The position numbers and the translations under genes are program-made. The notes under the pieces are model-generated. The model had not been told where the DNA came from, ran no database searches, and saw only the letters and a list, made by a program, of their open reading frames with translations. Positions 56,833 through 64,000 of a stretch of DNA of 64,000 bases are shown here, piece after piece. The stretch is taken from assembly GCF_017355935.1 (NCBI RefSeq), contig NZ_JAFIQT010000006.1:248001-312000 (forward strand), given 5' to 3'. Origin of the DNA: Telluribacter humicola. Lineage in GTDB: Bacteria > Bacteroidota > Bacteroidia > Cytophagales > Spirosomataceae. Position 1 is the first letter of the stretch. Each line of letters begins with the position of its first letter.

Positions 56833-57156
56833 ATGGGAAAAGCACTTGAAGTAACCGACAACAACTTTGAAGAAATCATTCAAGGTGATAAACCAGTACT
56901 TGTAGACTTCTGGGCCGAATGGTGCGGGCCTTGTAAGATGATCGGACCTGTTGTAGAGCAACTGGCCGGCGAGTACGAAGGTAAAGCCGTTATCGCTAAG
57001 ATGGACGTAGATATGAATGCTCAGGTACCTGCCAAATTTGGTATTCGCAGCATCCCTACTCTGATGATCTTCAAAGGTGGACAACTGGTAGATAAAGTAG
57101 TAGGTGCAGTACCTAAGTCTGTACTCGAGCAGAAATTGAACGAGCAAATAGGATAA
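56833..57156 (+). CDS. trxA: Thioredoxin
   Basis: A 107-residue thioredoxin (MGKALEVTDNNFEEII...) with the redox motif WCGPC in 'DFWAEWCGPCKMIGP', the cis-Pro in 'IRSIPTLMIF', and full normal length. The upstream in-frame ATG at 56782 would add 17 hydrophobic residues of no thioredoxin character, so I start at 56833. It reduces disulfides in the cytoplasm. Same strand as dnaE, 92 nt away, with a strong terminator downstream. Confidence 0.95.
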   Translation: MGKALEVTDNNFEEIIQGDKPVLVDFWAEWCGPCKMIGPVVEQLAGEYEGKAVIAKMDVDMNAQVPAKFGIRSIPTLMIFKGGQLVDKVVGAVPKSVLEQKLNEQIG

Positions 57157-57184
57157 TGATCCAAAGCTTTACCAGATAAATTTA

Positions 57185-57206
57185 AAGCCCCCGATTTCGG
57201 GGGCTT
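57185..57206. terminator. Bidirectional terminator between trxA and the aminotransferase
   Basis: A compact GC-rich stem AAGCCCCCG/CGGGGGCTT (57185-57193 and 57198-57206) with a 4-nt loop, followed by ATTTATT on the plus strand and TAAATTT on the minus strand. It lies between two convergent stops. Confidence 0.9.
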
Positions 57207-57208
57207 AT

Positions 57209-58423
57209 TTATTGCTCGTCCAGTACGTCAAGTATAGTTTGCAGCCCCTCACGTAGTTGCTCTACGGTAATGGTGAGCGGAGGAGCAATACGCATAGAGT
57301 TGTCACAAAACAGGAACCAGTCCGTGATCACGCCCCGCTCTATGCAGGAATCTATTACTTTCTTAAGTACTTCAAATGATTCGAATTCAGCCGCGCGCAT
57401 CAAGCCCTTTCCCCTTACTTCTTTAATCATGGGGTGCTGAAGCATCTCAACTATAATCTCACCCTTTTGGGTAGCTGATTGGTACAGTGCCTGATCACGA
57501 ATGGTCGTAAGGGTAGCCAGTGAAGCGGCGCAGCTTACCGGGTGACCACCGAAGGTAGTAATGTGTCCAAGGATGGGGTTGTTTTTGAATACGCTCATTA
57601 CCTCCTGTGAGGCCATAAAGGCTCCTACCGGCATTCCGCCCCCCATCCCCTTGGCACTGAGTAGTATATCCGGATAGATATCATAGCCTTCAAAAGCCCA
57701 GAATGTACCTGTGCGGCCAAAGCCGGTTTGTATTTCATCAAGGATAAGTAAGGCACCTACTTCAGTACAGCGCTGACGCAACGTCTGAAGGTACTCGAGG
57801 CTAGGTACCCGTATTCCCGCTTCACCACCTACAACCTCTATCACTACCGCCGCGGTTTTGGTGGTGATGAGGTCAAGGTCTGCCATCACGCCGTGGTGGA
57901 TCTGACGTACCCCCGGTAGCAAAGGACGAAAGTTACGTTTGAAAAACTCAGCCCCGGATAGACTCAGCGCTCCCTGGGTCGCACCGTGGTAGGCATTGAA
58001 GCAGGAAATAATCTCGTAACGGCCGGTGAAGCGCTTGGCCAGTTTCAAGGCTCCTTCAACGGCTTCGGTGCCGGAGTTGGTAAAGTACACGTTGTTAATG
58101 TTCCCGTAGGGAGCGTGAGCAGCCTGCGGTATGTCAAGAGTTTGAGCCAGGGCTTCTGCTAGCTGTACCTGTGGCCCCTGAACATACTCGCCGTAGACCA
58201 TCAGGTGCAGGTACTTGTCCAGTTGCTGTTGAATGGCTTCCAGAACGGCTTGATGCCGGTGCCCCACATTACTTACGCCGATTCCAGATATGAGATCGAG
58301 GTAGCGCTTGCCATTGGTGCCGTACATATATACCCCCTCGGCCCGCTCTATTTCGATAGCCAGGGGGAAATCAGAGGTTTGAGCAAGGTGATCAAAAAAA
58401 AGCTGTCGCTGACTAATATGCAT
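57209..58423 (-). CDS. Class III aminotransferase
   Basis: A 404-residue PLP enzyme started at ATG 58423 (MHISQRQLFFDHL). The frame stays open for 70 more codons, but that part is the reverse side of the next gene. Fold-type I class III motifs: 'YLDLISGIGVSNVGHRH', 'VYFTNSGTEAVEGALKLAKR', 'LILDEIQTGFGRTG' and the PLP Lys in 'LLSAKGMGGGMPVGAFM'. It is of the ornithine/acetylornithine type, transferring an amino group to 2-oxoglutarate. Substrate unknown; it is the last gene of the amide-ligase operon, 50 nt after the ATP-grasp-like gene, which suggests it supplies or consumes an amine or oxo-acid in that pathway. Confidence 0.9.
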   Translation of the reverse strand: MHISQRQLFFDHLAQTSDFPLAIEIERAEGVYMYGTNGKRYLDLISGIGVSNVGHRHQAVLEAIQQQLDKYLHLMVYGEYVQGPQVQLAEALAQTLDIPQAAHAPYGNINNVYFTNSGTEAVEGALKLAKRFTGRYEIISCFNAYHGATQGALSLSGAEFFKRNFRPLLPGVRQIHHGVMADLDLITTKTAAVVIEVVGGEAGIRVPSLEYLQTLRQRCTEVGALLILDEIQTGFGRTGTFWAFEGYDIYPDILLSAKGMGGGMPVGAFMASQEVMSVFKNNPILGHITTFGGHPVSCAASLATLTTIRDQALYQSATQKGEIIVEMLQHPMIKEVRGKGLMRAAEFESFEVLKKVIDSCIERGVITDWFLFCDNSMRIAPPLTITVEQLREGLQTILDVLDEQ

Positions 58424-58473
58424 TATGGGTAAATCTAAGAATGTTGGTAAAGAAGAAGAGTGGTAACTCAGGA

Positions 58474-59670
58474 TCAGAAGGGCTCGAAGAAGCAGGCGCT
58501 GCCACCTACCCAGGTAAAGTCTTTGTTGAAGCGGGTACCGATCATTTCGCCACGGCTGAGGCGGCTCAGGCTGGTCAACAGGGTAGGGCGCTCGTCCGCA
58601 TCCGGCCATACGTATAGCATCCGGATCTCGCACTTCACTAGCCCATCGGGTGCCTTGACAACCGGCGCGTACTCTACCTTGCGCTGCAGTATGTAGTTGA
58701 AGGGGTCGCGTAGCTGGAGAAGCATGTCCGGCGTAACGTGAAGTTGTACCCCCGTGCCAGCAAAGGAAAACAGGGGCTTCAAGACATAATTTTCCAGGTC
58801 CTGCGGAAAGGTTTCAGCGTAGTCACTGACGTAGCGGGTTTCGGGGATGTACTTGCTCTGTAAGAGAGGAATCGTAAACTTGCTGATTCGGAAGAACCAG
58901 TTGGGATGTCCTGCCCACTCCACATCCACATCATCCAGGAAATGGTAGCTGGTACTTAAATCCGGGAAGTTGTTAAAATCATCGAAGATGAGCCGGTTGT
59001 AAATTCGCTTTACCTCCACCTTTCGCCCCTCTTTTATATAGTATAGCTTTCTATCTTCTTTGATTAGTTGGGTATAACATACCGCCTTCACCCCAAGTAG
59101 CTGCTCAGTAATAGCAAAATCGATGCGGGTCTTTTGCTGCTCAGGGTATATATCCAGCAGGATGACATTCTCCGGATCCTGATTACCTACAATGGTCTTT
59201 TTGAGTACAGCTACATACTCTTCAAAAGTATTTACCCCAAAAGCATAGGCAAAGTCAGCGGGAATCTGGTAGTTTTTCCGGTAGAGTTCTGAAATATATC
59301 CCTGGTACCCAAACAACGAAGGAAAGCCCTGCAGCTCAATGAGCTGAGGTATGAAGTTTCCCTGTTCATCCTGACATACCGCGAAATCAATAGCCAGAAA
59401 AGAGGTATGCTTATTCTCGTTTGGGACGTACTGATCGGGTGGAATGGCCCGGTCCGTTTTGTCCCTAAAATCATCACTGATGATAGTATTAATGATATCT
59501 TCACTGGCTTCGACGAGTTGCCGGCCCAGCGCACGAGGTACTAGTACCGGGCTTTCTGCTACTCTGAAATCAAGCTGACCCGGATAATCATGATGAATAG
59601 CAGAGAGAAACCCCTGATATTTGTCATCACTGAATGACTGATTAAATTGGTCCCGGGCTTCTTTGTGCAT
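58474..59670 (-). CDS. ATP-grasp-like protein of the amide-ligase operon
   Basis: A 398-residue protein I do not recognise by name. The C-terminal half resembles an ATP-grasp ligase: 'LENYVLKPLFSFAGTGVQLHVTPD' (nucleotide-binding Lys loop), 'FNYILQRKVEYAP' and 'KCEIRMLYVW', ending 'MIGTRFNKDFTWVGGSACFFEPF'. The N-terminal half has 'FLAIDFAVCQDEQGNFIPQLIELQGFPSLFGYQG', where Glu/Gln could act as a metal ligand. The arrangement is reminiscent of glutathionylspermidine synthase-type enzymes, but that is a guess. Between the amidotransferase and the aminotransferase, 27 and 50 nt apart. Confidence 0.75.
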   Translation of the reverse strand: MHKEARDQFNQSFSDDKYQGFLSAIHHDYPGQLDFRVAESPVLVPRALGRQLVEASEDIINTIISDDFRDKTDRAIPPDQYVPNENKHTSFLAIDFAVCQDEQGNFIPQLIELQGFPSLFGYQGYISELYRKNYQIPADFAYAFGVNTFEEYVAVLKKTIVGNQDPENVILLDIYPEQQKTRIDFAITEQLLGVKAVCYTQLIKEDRKLYYIKEGRKVEVKRIYNRLIFDDFNNFPDLSTSYHFLDDVDVEWAGHPNWFFRISKFTIPLLQSKYIPETRYVSDYAETFPQDLENYVLKPLFSFAGTGVQLHVTPDMLLQLRDPFNYILQRKVEYAPVVKAPDGLVKCEIRMLYVWPDADERPTLLTSLSRLSRGEMIGTRFNKDFTWVGGSACFFEPF

Positions 59671-59697
59671 GGGTAATGGATTAGAATAAGAAAAAAC

Positions 59698-60540
59698 TTA
59701 GGCCTGCTGTGAAGTAAGAAGGGACTTCGCGACTGTCTCCAGAAAGGTAGGAATAATAGTGGCACCTGTCAGCATGATCTTATCCGGATCATTCAGGTGG
59801 TCAATCATAGCCTGGTACTTCTCCTCGCCGTGGTTTTTAATAATGTTCGCTTTTTTATCTTCCTTCATGAAGTGCCGTAGCATCCCTTCCGCATCGGCTT
59901 CGGGGTGAAATTGCGTCCCGAATATCTCTTTGGAAAAGCGAATAGCCATCACAGCCCTTTCCAGATTGACGTGCGGACGAATCTTTTCCAGACAAAGGAT
60001 TTTTGAACCCATCCGCTCCAGTACCTGGTGATTGGGCTGAACAACTTGGTAGTCGCGGGAGTCCACTACCCAAAATGGATCCTCCAAGCCTTTGAACAGG
60101 GGCTCTTTATGACCGGCACGGGTTGGGTGTACCGGAAAGGTACCAAACGACGTGGAGCGACGCTTGCCGACGTAGCCAACCTGCCAGTGCTGGCATGCCA
60201 GCTGAAAAGAGTGACAAATTATGAACAGGTACTTCTTATTGGTATTACGGCGGCTGGCATTATAGTCCCACAACTGGTCCAGGAACTTAAAGTAGCGGCG
60301 CTCCCAGGGGGTACCTTCCAGTATAGGGCTACCGGGCCCACCCGTTGAGAAGTAGGCATCATAACTCAGATCCGGTACTTCCTGGCGCTGACGTACGTCA
60401 AAAACCTGGTACTGTACAGGTAGTTTTTCCTTTACACTAAAATCTTCTATATGCTGCTTGATACAGCGCATTCCTTCATTAGCTACACCCGCGTACATGT
60501 CAAGTATAGCTATTCGGAGTGCTGGTTTATCTGGATTCAT
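59698..60540 (-). CDS. Class I glutamine amidotransferase-like protein
   Basis: A 280-residue protein from ATG 60540 (MNPDKPALRIAILDMYAG). The alpha/beta class I GATase triad is visible: nucleophile Cys in 'FIICHSFQLACQHW' and His-Glu in 'FGTQFHPEADAEG'. The segment 'YDAYFSTGGPGSPIL' precedes it. It stands alone as a domain, unfused to a synthetase. In such operons it may supply ammonia from glutamine to the ligases, or hydrolyse a gamma-glutamyl bond as in PuuD-like enzymes; I cannot tell which. The residues around the Cys (CHS, not CxGxQ) are atypical. 31 nt after the GCS2 gene and 27 nt before the ATP-grasp-like gene. Confidence 0.88.
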   Translation of the reverse strand: MNPDKPALRIAILDMYAGVANEGMRCIKQHIEDFSVKEKLPVQYQVFDVRQRQEVPDLSYDAYFSTGGPGSPILEGTPWERRYFKFLDQLWDYNASRRNTNKKYLFIICHSFQLACQHWQVGYVGKRRSTSFGTFPVHPTRAGHKEPLFKGLEDPFWVVDSRDYQVVQPNHQVLERMGSKILCLEKIRPHVNLERAVMAIRFSKEIFGTQFHPEADAEGMLRHFMKEDKKANIIKNHGEEKYQAMIDHLNDPDKIMLTGATIIPTFLETVAKSLLTSQQA

Positions 60541-60577
60541 TTTCACTTGTTCAATTCCACACTATTATCCCGCAAAA

Positions 60578-61678
60578 TTAAGAGATTCCTACCTTAGTTT
60601 CGGATACAATATAGTCAACAACGGCAGCGAGGTCATTAGTTTCCTCAAATACAGCCAATTGGCGATCGGCTCCGGTACCCATTTCCATAATTTTGTGTAC
60701 GTACTCTATTTCGTGGCGGCTACCCAGTTCGTCTACCACATCATCAATAAAGTCAAGCAGTTCCAATATTAACTCCCTGTATTCCACTTCTTCCTGCTTA
60801 CCAAAGTCAATCAATTTGCAGTGGATACCATAGCGGGCAGCCCGCCACTTATTTTCGTTGATCAGGATACGGCGGTAGTTGCGGAAGTTGAGGTTTTTTT
60901 TCTGGAGTCTATAAATCTTAACCACCAGCGCCTGCATGATAGCCGCCAGGCATACCGTTTCGTCGGTGCGCATAGGTACGTCACAGATCCTGAACTCGAT
61001 GGTGTCAAAGAAGGGGTGCAGTCGGATATCCCACCAGATTTTCTTGCCGTTGTCAATGCAGTTGGTCTTGATGAGCAGTTTGATGTACTCATCGTACTCG
61101 GCCGCGCTGGCAAAAAAATCGGGTATACCCGTGCGCGGAAATTTATCAAATACCTTTGAGCGGTACGATTTGAAGCCGGTATTCCGTCCGCACCAGAACG
61201 GTGAGTTGGTAGAAAGGGCGTACACATGGGGCAGGAAGTACCGGACCGAATTCATGATCTGCACCGCATCATTCCGGTTTTCGATCCCGACGTGTACGTG
61301 CAGGCCAAAGATCAGATTACCCCGGGCTACATCCCTCATTTCATCAATGAGCTGATCGTAGCGGGGATCGTCAGTAATGAGCTGGTCAACCCAGTCGGAA
61401 AAAGGATGGGTACCGGCGGCGGCGACCAGCAGATCCTGTTCGCCCGCCATATCAAGGATCATCCGACGCAGGTACGTGACCTCTTCCCGGGCTTCCTCTA
61501 TATTATTACATACGTTGGTACCTACCTCTACCACCGACTGGTGCATCTCTGCCTTGACACGCTCTTTTAGTATGATTTTTCCTCCATCAACCAGTTTCGA
61601 CATGTGCGAGCGCAGGTTGCGCGTAACCGGATCGATGGTCATAAATTCTTCTTCTATTCCCAGGGTGAATGCAGGCAT
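60578..61678 (-). CDS. GCS2-family carboxylate-amine ligase (YbdK-like)
   Basis: A 366-residue glutamine-synthetase-fold ligase of the glutamate-cysteine ligase family 2. The acidic metal/ATP motif is 'LGIEEEFMTIDP' (E8-E10), with 'VEVGTNVCNNIEEA', 'FGLHVHVGIENRNDAV', 'PFWCGRNTGFKSYRSKVFDKFPRTG' and 'WWDIRLHPFFDTIEFRICDVPM'. YbdK-type enzymes ligate glutamate with an amine, with weak activity on cysteine. 17 nt after the ATP-grasp gene, so strongly coupled. The actual substrates are unknown. Confidence 0.93.
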   Translation of the reverse strand: MPAFTLGIEEEFMTIDPVTRNLRSHMSKLVDGGKIILKERVKAEMHQSVVEVGTNVCNNIEEAREEVTYLRRMILDMAGEQDLLVAAAGTHPFSDWVDQLITDDPRYDQLIDEMRDVARGNLIFGLHVHVGIENRNDAVQIMNSVRYFLPHVYALSTNSPFWCGRNTGFKSYRSKVFDKFPRTGIPDFFASAAEYDEYIKLLIKTNCIDNGKKIWWDIRLHPFFDTIEFRICDVPMRTDETVCLAAIMQALVVKIYRLQKKNLNFRNYRRILINENKWRAARYGIHCKLIDFGKQEEVEYRELILELLDFIDDVVDELGSRHEIEYVHKIMEMGTGADRQLAVFEETNDLAAVVDYIVSETKVGIS

Positions 61679-61695
61679 ACTCTGTTATTATTGGG

Positions 61696-62805
61696 TTAAG
61701 GTTTCTTCTTCGGAGCCTCTTTTTTGGGAGCCGAAGCTTTGCCTGGTGTTGCTACTTTTTCGAGACTTTTAGGAGCCGCCTTTGGGGCGGCGGTTGCTTT
61801 GGCTTCTGACAGACCTGGTAATGGTTCGGTTTTCTGGGTAGGTGCACCGCCCGTAGCACCCACTGCCGACCGTACAAAGGTACCCCAAGTGAGATTGTCC
61901 TGTCCTTCCTTCTGTTTTTTGGCCCGGGCTATGGCCATATTAGCCGCGGCTTCTACGACCCATTCAAAATTGTCCTGACCTACCGAGTACACATCGGCAT
62001 CGGGGGCCGGATTGCAAAAGTCAATAGCATACGGAATACCATCACGTACCGCAAATTCCACCGTATTAAAATCATACCCTAAGGCCTGGTTGAGCCGGAG
62101 TACATAGTCTTTCATGGTAGCCAGCAGCTTTTTACCCGCGGGACCTTCGGTATTCATCTGAGCGGCGTAACGCAGGTGGTGCGGGTTGCGTGGCTCGTAG
62201 GGCATCATCAGTACGTCCTTCTGCCCGATGCAGTAGCAGCGGAAGTAGTCGCTGAATACGATCTCCTCCTGCAGCATCATGACCAGCTGCCCCGTTTCCT
62301 GGTGTTTGCGCCACAGATCATTGGCATCGTGTACCTGATAAACGCTTTTCCAACCACCACCGGCGTGAGGTTTCATGTATGCCGGGAAACCTACGTAGTC
62401 AAACATGGCTTCCCATTCCAGCGGATATTTAAGATTACGGAAAGAGGTTTCGAAGGTATCTGTAGGCCGCTCGTGGGAGGGGAGGATCACGGTTTTGGGA
62501 ACAGGTACCCCTATCTTTTCGGCCAGGCAGTTGTTAAAGAACTTCTCATCAGCACTCCACCAGAAGGGGTTATTGATCACGGCTGTACCACAAAGGGCCG
62601 CGTTTTTCAGATAGGATCTATAGAAGGGAACATCCTGTGAAATCCGGTCAATAATGACTGCATACTCGGTAGGCTCAGCCTGCATGACCTTACCAATTGA
62701 GACGGCCTCGGCCACTATACCTTTTTCTCCCTTGCTATTAACACGATCTATAAAAGCCTGCGGAAAAGTGTTTTCCATGCCATGGAGGATACCAATTTTT
62801 TTCAT
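61696..62805 (-). CDS. ATP-grasp ligase with an Ala/Lys/Pro-rich tail
   Basis: A 369-residue protein (MKKIGILHGMENTFPQAFI) of the D-Ala-D-Ala ligase/RimK superfamily. The ATP-binding Lys is in 'FPAYMKPHAGGGWKSVYQV', the hinge in 'LVMMLQEEIVFSDYF', and the metal-binding Glu/Asn in 'NTVEFAVRDGIPYAIDFCNPAPDADV'. The last 60 residues are low-complexity (rich in Ala, Pro, Lys, Thr, Gly) and probably disordered. It is the second gene of the operon, with GCS2 starting 17 nt later. The frame opens 12 codons earlier at a weaker start. Confidence 0.9.
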   Translation of the reverse strand: MKKIGILHGMENTFPQAFIDRVNSKGEKGIVAEAVSIGKVMQAEPTEYAVIIDRISQDVPFYRSYLKNAALCGTAVINNPFWWSADEKFFNNCLAEKIGVPVPKTVILPSHERPTDTFETSFRNLKYPLEWEAMFDYVGFPAYMKPHAGGGWKSVYQVHDANDLWRKHQETGQLVMMLQEEIVFSDYFRCYCIGQKDVLMMPYEPRNPHHLRYAAQMNTEGPAGKKLLATMKDYVLRLNQALGYDFNTVEFAVRDGIPYAIDFCNPAPDADVYSVGQDNFEWVVEAAANMAIARAKKQKEGQDNLTWGTFVRSAVGATGGAPTQKTEPLPGLSEAKATAAPKAAPKSLEKVATPGKASAPKKEAPKKKP

Positions 62806-62889
62806 TCGAGCTACTGATTTAAACGTTACAATTATTTGCAAGCAAGGAGCTACTACACTCCCTTAATATCATAAAAATAGTGATAGCCA

Positions 62890-63603
62890 CTATTTGATTA
62901 ACATTTTGGATAAGTAATCCGGAAACATCTGGCGCCAGAGGGGCCAGTCATGTACTTCCCAGCCCCGAATGTCCAGCCAGTGGTCTATGCCTTTGTTATT
63001 AAGGATGCGGGACATGGTCAGGTTGCCATTCAGGCAGATATCCCATTCCGAACTCCCCAGTACTATATTCATATGGCCGTACCGCCAACCTTGTTCGTGC
63101 GGGACAAAATCCACGGGATTATTGTAGTACACATTTTCATCATAGTAGCCATTCAGGAAGCTTCGGATGTCAAAATCCCCGCTCATACTTAGCAGATAGT
63201 CCACCTGTTCGGGATGTTTGAAGGCAAAGTTGAGTGAATGGTACCCGCCAAAGCTACATCCACCTACGGCTATACGATCAATTTTGTTTTCATGCTGGAT
63301 ATAAGGGACCAGTTCTTCGGTCAGGAACTTGTCGTACTGCATATAGTTATGGACACGTTGTGATGGCTCAAGGTGTTTGCCATACCAGGTTTCCGAGTCA
63401 ATGGAATCAACACAGTAAATCTTGAAATGCCCTGCTTCAATAAAACCTCTTACTGACTCAATGAGTCCCTGGTCTTTGGCTTCGTAGTAGCGGTTGAGTG
63501 TACTCGGAAATAGCAGAATGGGATATCCCCAGTGTCCAAATACAAGCATTTCGATGTCACGCCCCAGATGGTGTGAGTAGTACCGGATGTAGTTCTCCTG
63601 CAA
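62890..63603 (-). CDS. Esterase-like alpha/beta hydrolase, first gene of the amide-ligase operon
   Basis: A 237-residue alpha/beta hydrolase of the esterase family (PF00756-like), without signal peptide and thus cytoplasmic. The nucleophile Ser is in 'GGCSFGGYHSLNFA' (GxSxG elbow) and the His in 'GWEVHDWPLW'. The start is TTG at 63603 (MQENYIRYYSHHLGRD...); no ATG or GTG is available and the residues right after it match the family start. The gene precedes the ATP-grasp gene by 84 nt. It may hydrolyse an ester or a peptide/thioester made by the ligases. Confidence 0.87.
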   Translation of the reverse strand: MQENYIRYYSHHLGRDIEMLVFGHWGYPILLFPSTLNRYYEAKDQGLIESVRGFIEAGHFKIYCVDSIDSETWYGKHLEPSQRVHNYMQYDKFLTEELVPYIQHENKIDRIAVGGCSFGGYHSLNFAFKHPEQVDYLLSMSGDFDIRSFLNGYYDENVYYNNPVDFVPHEQGWRYGHMNIVLGSSEWDICLNGNLTMSRILNNKGIDHWLDIRGWEVHDWPLWRQMFPDYLSKMLIK

Positions 63604-63734
63604 GGTGGTATGGATTAGATTAATGATTGTAATATATAAAGTATCTCCAATGATGCCAATCCTGACCTAAGATTTAACCCGTCCGTAACATCGCGCTTCC
63701 CCACAAAATACCCGTATATTGCTACCAGTAAACT

Positions 63735-64000
63735 ATGAAATCTTATATTAGTTATTTAGCAATTGTTTTAGTGAGTTCTACATTTCTGGCGGCACAGCCC
63801 CAACACCCTATTCGGCAGGTACAGGATAGCCTGGTTTCTGTCCATCTCAAGCGTACCGTTAAACTTACCCTGCTTATCCCCGATGTTACAGCTGGCAGTA
63901 CTGAGCGCTATCCGCTGTTACTGGTACATGACGGGCAGGACTTTCCAGCTCTGCACCTAAGGGAAAGCGTGGCGGAGTTGCTGACTGAACAAAATTTACC
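63735..64000 (+). CDS. Secreted esterase-like hydrolase (3' end outside window)
   Basis: The first 88 codons of a gene that runs off the window. A signal peptide is clear (MKSYISYLAIVLVSSTFLAAQ). The mature part shows 'SVHLKRTVKLTLLIPDV' and 'YPLLLVHDGQDFPALHLRESVAELL', the N-terminal strand and VHDGQDF motif usual for esterase-family (PF00756) alpha/beta hydrolases. The catalytic Ser lies further on and is not seen. It is divergent from the operon esterase, sharing 131 nt. Confidence 0.75.
   Translation, partial: MKSYISYLAIVLVSSTFLAAQPQHPIRQVQDSLVSVHLKRTVKLTLLIPDVTAGSTERYPLLLVHDGQDFPALHLRESVAELLTEQNL

Follow-up and report, generated by a model that had tools for sequence, protein, structure and literature searches.

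A three-ligase operon in Telluribacter humicola, recurrent in Bacteroidota, with a possible role in making a peptide-amine conjugate

Enzymes of the GCS type activate a carboxylate for linkage to an amine, those of the RimK type add amino acids, and ligases of the YgiC/GspS/glutathione-synthetase fold join an amine or an amino acid to the carboxylate of a peptide. Glutathione synthesis by GshA and GshB combines, by family, a GCS-type enzyme and one of glutathione-synthetase fold in successive ATP-dependent ligations, and the 2009 amidoligase survey of Iyer et al. reportedly described linked ATP-grasp and COOH-NH2 ligases accompanied by peptidases, with products unknown. Here we examine a six-gene operon at positions 57209-63603, on the minus strand of a 64,000-nucleotide window (the whole stretch of DNA analysed) from contig NZ_JAFIQT010000006.1 of the 6.56 Mb genome of Telluribacter humicola. 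The genes encode, in order, an esterase (EST), a RimK-like ATP-grasp ligase (AG1), a YbdK-type carboxylate-amine ligase (GCS2), a class-I glutamine amidotransferase-like protein (GAT), a predicted ligase of the glutathionylspermidine/glutathione-synthetase fold (AG2) and a class III aminotransferase (AT); compared with glutathione synthesis, the operon adds AG1 as a third ligase, together with GAT and esterases. Passages of one earlier study (PMC4431377) state that peptide ligases encoded together often carry out consecutive ligation steps, and linked amidoligases as a general idea are already known from them. A search of the open-access literature, which leaves out most subscription journals, returned no paper on this operon set.

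Presence of each protein was surveyed across 296 Bacteroidota genomes, with GCS2 counted at E 1e-60 (103 genomes, of which the 93 at 48% identity or more were kept and the ten weaker dropped) and GAT at E 1e-20. AG1 was found in 108 genomes, close GCS2 in 93, AG2 in 92 and GAT in 70; AG1 and GCS2 occur jointly in 90, AG1 and AG2 in 89, AG2 and GCS2 in 87, and all three ligases in 84. Each ligase pair co-occurs with a Fisher p of 3e-52 to 9e-61, in tests that ignore kinship, and at the level of genera AG1 is present in all 64 that have AG2, compared with 14 of the 76 without it (p 2e-26). Close relatives may have or lack all of AG1, AG2, GCS2 and GAT, as exemplified by two genomes of one genus (G072 and G166). 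Of the other 91 genomes with AG2, 80 had the neighbourhood of the gene fetched (11 were left out), and AG1 lies within 44 of these neighbourhoods. Of the remaining genomes, 34 out of 36 carry AG1 outside the fetched stretch, some on the same contig as AG2 (about 12 kb off in G253, 21 kb in G249); physical linkage therefore does not explain all of the co-occurrence. These results give good support to the three ligases being a functional unit, and their joint presence in more than a quarter of the genomes points to a fairly widespread metabolite.

Conservation also extends to gene order. Among 81 neighbourhoods (the 80 fetched and the window), GCS2 is found near AG2 in 46, AG1 in 45, GAT in 38, EST in 34 and AT in 2, these linkage counts being lower bounds since several fetched contigs end near AG2. 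A second set, the best 80 named loci, holds mostly closer relatives and overlaps with the first (locus L150 is a contig of genome G186); here GAT lies near AG2 in 67, GCS2 in 49, AG1 in 45, a second esterase gene (EST2) in 43 and EST in 38. The best 80 genome_contigs loci appear by title to be Bacteroidota, one being titled only as an uncultured bacterium. Loci with all five genes, in both sets, have them in the order EST-AG1-GCS2-GAT-AG2, and because the same order recurs in distant relatives it is not due to chance. The sequence-only reading, made from the letters of the window, had allowed that the homologues might prove scattered without a conserved neighbourhood; both order and co-occurrence are instead retained. 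Two loci (L105 and L111) have AG1, GCS2 and AG2 as consecutive genes, without GAT or EST, and this row offers a defined three-protein set.

AG2 is absent from 19 genomes with AG1, of which 15 have GAT, and these revealed an exchange at the AG2 position. In all 14 of the 15 AG1- and GAT-bearing loci that were fetched (L195-L208), AG1 and GAT flank a gene for a circularly permuted (CP) ATP-grasp protein of about 455 aa. Three of three members tested match CP_ATPgrasp_2 (PF14403), one of them above the Pfam cut-off, and one member also matches 3n6x, a putative glutathionylspermidine synthase (phmmer E 2.7e-4), which is the second-best Foldseek match of AG2 too. EST is retained in 10 of these 14 loci, and a second esterase family follows in nine, with two of its members assigned to PF00756. 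No such slot protein was found at E 1e-15 in 161 AG2 neighbourhoods from the two overlapping sets. Close GCS2 is present elsewhere in 6 of the 15 genomes, so that the exchange concerns the place of AG2 rather than strictly that of GCS2. Together, these findings suggest that the second ligase, of the AG2 fold group, is an exchangeable module.

The ligases themselves differ in how closely they resemble described families. GCS2 (60578-61678, 366 aa) matches PF04107 and scores 564 bits against the NCBIfam model PRK13515, passing its equivalog cut-off of 371, and it aligns with YbdK (1r8g) at E 2.5e-50 over 334 residues. It is thus a YbdK-type enzyme by family, and the difference from YbdK lies in its company: two distant plasmid homologues (41% and 36% identical) have no annotated AG1, AG2 or GAT within 5 kb. 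In a tblastn search of 72,556 plasmid records, nothing was found for AG1, AG2 or GAT, and 70 records matched GCS2, all below 60% identity. AG1 (61696-62805; 369 aa if it starts at the ATG at 62805, whereas the mechanically called open reading frame begins at a TTG at 62841) has no Pfam match in its window copy and no sequence match in the Protein Data Bank at E 0.1. Its match to the RimK family model TIGR00768 (rimK_fam) is weak (E 7.6e-06; 25.5 bits against an NCBIfam cut-off of 143.4, which is not reached), and 18 of 26 members of its alignment weakly match R2K_2 (best E 0.00076). The predicted structure of AG1 (mean pLDDT 80.0, mostly below 50 from residue 310) superposes on RimK 7qys with Z 21.3 over 258 aligned residues at an rmsd of 2.7, indicating a RimK-type ATP-grasp fold. 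AG1 therefore resembles the RimK/R2K ligases in fold and through weak profile matches, but falls far under the family cut-off and accompanies GCS2 and AG2, or the CP-ATP-grasp protein.

AG2 (58474-59670, 398 aa) likewise has no Pfam match in its window copy, with PF03738 (GSP_synth) undetected at E 1, and no match to PF03917, the eukaryotic-type glutathione synthetase, at E 0.1 (none at E 1 genome-wide). Its structure is confidently predicted (pLDDT 94.1, pTM 0.92), and the model has the full synthetase-domain fold of Escherichia coli GspS (2ioa; Z 24.3, rmsd 3.9, 343 residues aligned), a fold shared with human glutathione synthetase (2hgs; Z 24.1, 366 aligned, rmsd 3.7). Scores against YgiC (Z 25.3 over 342 residues at 3.6 A), YjfC (Z 25.2) and homoglutathione synthetase (Z 24.3) are similar; aligned spans run from 342 to 367 residues, and matches within one Z unit were treated as ties. 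Judged by its predicted model, AG2 belongs to the YgiC/GspS/glutathione-synthetase fold group, a fold that leaves the substrate undecided. PF03738 is the commonest weak Pfam match in the AG2 alignment (16 of 30 members, best E 5.2e-05), such that AG2 resembles the GspS/YgiC/YjfC family in whole fold and by weak matches of its relatives, and differs in its own missing PF03738 match and in a loop motif considered below. A tentative role can thus be given to a protein without a Pfam match in the window copy. The nearest named AG2 among the matches listed is that of Telluribacter sp. SYSU D00476 (87% identity). A separate and clear PF03738 protein (369.5 bits) is encoded outside the operon of the same genome (G000:C11:1358419-1359549). 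In another locus (L075, 7137-9737), AG2 and a sodium:solute symporter domain (PF00474) are read as a single open frame. This may be a fusion, and then a hint that a substrate is imported, or else a lost stop or assembly error, and it is not relied on here.

Because the ligases co-occur even when unlinked, the simplest view is that all three act in sequence on one product. The reading that we favour, and consider about evenly balanced between right and wrong, is a self-contained ligase pathway to one small peptide-amine conjugate, comparable to glutathionylspermidine or trypanothione but made by enzymes of its own; a chain of this kind follows from the general chemistry of GCS-, RimK- and YgiC/GspS/glutathione-synthetase-type ligases. 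The catalysis, substrates, step order and product that we infer are as follows. GCS2 would link an amine or an amino acid to the side-chain carboxylate of glutamate or of a related compound; AG1, as a RimK-type ATP-grasp enzyme, would add a further amino acid; and AG2 would cap a free carboxylate with an amine or final amino acid. GAT would most likely act as a hydrolase on an amide or gamma-glutamyl linkage, either in the finished product or in an intermediate. EST, together with the divergently encoded EST2, may hydrolyse, release or recycle an ester or amide form. The sequence-only reading had also predicted stepwise assembly of a small amide or peptide by the linked ligases, and the phylum-wide co-occurrence and the predicted ligase folds of AG1 and AG2 lend support to such ATP-dependent assembly. 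A more specific version, put forward tentatively and with a minor chance of being right, is that more than a quarter of Bacteroidota make a new peptide-polyamine conjugate alongside bacillithiol, as a bacterial counterpart of glutathionylspermidine and trypanothione, with the amidase role filled by GAT or by an M29-type peptidase and with lineages swapping the capping ligase (AG2 or the CP-ATP-grasp protein) for variants.

Several observations weigh against the favoured pathway. Kinship may contribute to the co-occurrence, an effect that the genus-level test lessens and does not remove. AG1 is missing from 36 of the 80 fetched AG2 loci, and 19 genomes have AG1 without AG2; 37 of the 92 AG2 genomes gave no GAT match at the threshold used. 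Close GCS2 is lacking in 5 of the 92 (G037, G064, G158, G178 and G212), and would therefore not always be needed; four genomes have AG1, AG2 and GAT without it. Regarding AG2, the Z scores to YgiC and to the glutathione synthetases lie about 1 apart, which does not allow a choice between them. Its glycine-rich loop, SFAGxG, appears to lack the Glu of the YgiC motif SREGANV in a weak profile alignment (E 0.0079), so that its metal site, as judged from sequence, may differ from that of YgiC. Furthermore, one study reports YgiC to be without glutathionylspermidine synthase activity (PMC12506659), and on that report the substrate of AG2 cannot be read from its fold. Finally, the bacillithiol enzyme BshC is near-universal: at E 1e-20 it is found in 291 of the 296 genomes, with 285 of them exceeding its cut-off. 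Another thiol is therefore probably already made in these genomes, and the need for a second is not obvious; the idea that the operon replaces bacillithiol was set aside on the same counts.

The function of GAT separates the favoured pathway from the first alternative, in which GAT is a true glutaminase feeding ammonia to a ligase and the product is a terminal-amide peptide, for instance an osmolyte-like compound modelled on N-acetylglutaminylglutamine amide. GAT (59698-60546, 282 aa from a GTG or 280 from the ATG at 60540) matches the PF00117 GATase domain at 30.2 bits against a cut-off of 22.8, and the triad C109, H212 and E214 is invariant in 21 of 21 sequences along with the GGPG loop (G67, G68, P69, G70). 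Of the 70 GAT genomes, just one lacks AG1. These points favour the glutaminase. With 37 AG2 genomes in which it was not found, GAT is more probably an accessory hydrolase than a source of ammonia; moreover, a gene of the M29 peptidase family (assigned from two members tested) takes the usual GAT place directly before AG2 in four loci and lies one gene farther in a fifth. We therefore consider the glutaminase alternative rather unlikely.

Equally unlikely, in our view, is that the operon modifies a protein, with AG1 adding residues to a protein end or to a lysine, possibly in its own tail, and GAT and EST removing them. The nearest structural match of AG1 is RimK, and passages of PMC4431377 propose protein-directed action for the R2K_2 clade, to which AG1 alignment members show their weak matches. 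The disordered C-terminal tail of AG1 (61696-61881) is rich in Ala, Lys and Pro and nearly free of Arg: across 45 sequences it extends for 13-147 aa after an NLTWG motif, and past its first 14 residues (1721 residues in all) it consists of 26% Ala, 24.5% Lys, 15% Pro and 0.2% Arg, compared with 4% Arg in the AG1 domain. The tail might conceivably serve as an amine acceptor. In 8 of the 45 sequences no more than 25 residues follow the motif, from which it follows that a long tail is not essential, and no recurrent target-like gene was seen in the top neighbour clusters. Also counting against protein modification, GCS2-type and GspS-like ligases act on small-molecule substrates in the cases known to us.

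Slightly less likely again is ordinary synthesis of glutathione, or of a close homologue, with GCS2 acting as GshA and either AG2 or AG1 as GshB. The GshA-like family of GCS2 and the eukaryotic glutathione-synthetase fold of the AG2 model are consistent with it; the operon, however, has three ligases rather than two, none of the glutathione-synthetase models in Pfam detects AG2, and BshC suggests that a different thiol is probably made. The sequence-only reading had named ordinary glutathione enzymes as the outcome that would overturn it, and the family models tried for AG2 do not point that way, while a product resembling glutathione could still fit.

The last gene of the operon is of a different standing. 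AT (57209-58423, 404 aa from its ATG, the mechanically called frame beginning at 58633 and overlapping AG2) is a PF00202 class III aminotransferase whose nearest solved structure is putrescine aminotransferase (E 6.5e-72). Homologues at E 1e-100 occur in 130 of the 296 genomes and show no association with AG1 (odds ratio 1.1, p 0.72), AG2 (0.9) or GCS2 (1.0). In the class of the window (73 genomes), AT is lacking from two genomes and AG1 is present in 39. AT is found in 1 of the 80 fetched AG2 loci (2 of 81 with the window), and among the best 80 named loci 16 have it no more than 200 nt from AG2 and seven more have it farther off, a count of 23 (27 before) that leaves out L157, L168, L169 and L179, where a different aminotransferase is 29-31% identical. 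On the absent ligase association and the single fetched locus, AT was rejected as a general member of the pathway; it is a lineage-specific neighbour outside the conserved set. Accordingly, of the overall interpretation in the sequence-only reading, assembly by linked ligases stands, and its proposal that the aminotransferase makes an amine or oxo-acid finds no support.

AT is associated with GAT (odds ratio 4.2, p 5e-7), and this bears on a further alternative, a Puu-like use of gamma-glutamyl amines in which GCS2 loads an amine, GAT frees the gamma-glutamyl group and AT completes the route. The GCS2/GAT/AT family trio, which we take to resemble PuuA/PuuD/PuuE, and the putrescine aminotransferase match of AT speak for it. 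Given that the class of the window, 73 of the 296 genomes, accounts for 39 of the 70 genomes with GAT and 71 of the 130 with AT, the association may reflect class membership alone. AT does not co-occur with the three ligases, the operon has no oxidase or aldehyde dehydrogenase gene, and GAT has no match to Peptidase_C26 at E 0.1; the alternative is accordingly improbable. The least plausible possibility, a graspetide locus (a class of RiPP) with AG1 cyclising a precursor peptide, is prompted by the RiPP ligases PsnB and MdnC among the structural matches of AG1, and is judged very improbable: RimK ranks above both by Z, the 17-84 nt gaps leave no room for a precursor gene between operon genes (open reading frames being surveyed from 80 aa upwards), and we know of no role for GCS2 or AG2 in such loci.

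Within the window, the open reading frame list and a reading of the sequence bear out the six-gene minus-strand run that had been described with spacings of 17-84 nt, the gaps from EST to AT being 84, 17, 31-37, 27 and 50 nt. Profile searches place EST in PF00756, GCS2 in PF04107, GAT in PF00117 and AT in PF00202, and AG1 and AG2 have modelled ligase folds. EST (62890-63603, 237 aa, TTG start) opens the operon and is an alpha/beta-hydrolase of the PF00756 esterase family by profile search, with a GCSFGG sequence that is presumably a nucleophile-type motif. Divergent from it on the plus strand, EST2 (63735-64000) had not been in the earlier gene list; it runs past the window end, is 286 aa long in the genome (L257, 1236-2096), matches PF00756 at E 4.7e-30 and has, by eye, a signal-peptide-like N-terminus. 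The 131 nt between the two esterase genes (63604-63734) contain a promoter-like match at 63659-63631 on the minus strand, and such matches are not commoner there than in shuffled sequence. At the other end, the space between AT and a convergent thioredoxin gene holds a terminator-like hairpin (57185-57206) of nine pairs, seven of them GC. The operon had been described as closed by one terminator, and a hairpin is indeed present; it was scored on the plus strand only by the terminator scan, and may serve both AT and the thioredoxin gene. An Rfam search of 57000-64000 gave no match, and neither did searches of defence and phage libraries at E 0.01 with five operon proteins (AT left out).

Among genomes of one family (f24), two further neighbour types were observed when 81 loci with unlinked AG1 and GCS2 were clustered, each assigned from one member tested: an aromatic amino-acid-lyase family gene beside AG1 in eight loci, and a serine-carboxypeptidase family gene beside GCS2 in nine. 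The f24 loci with these two neighbour types are L209, L210, L211, L217, L218, L219, L225, L229, L234, L239, L245, L248, L250 and L253.

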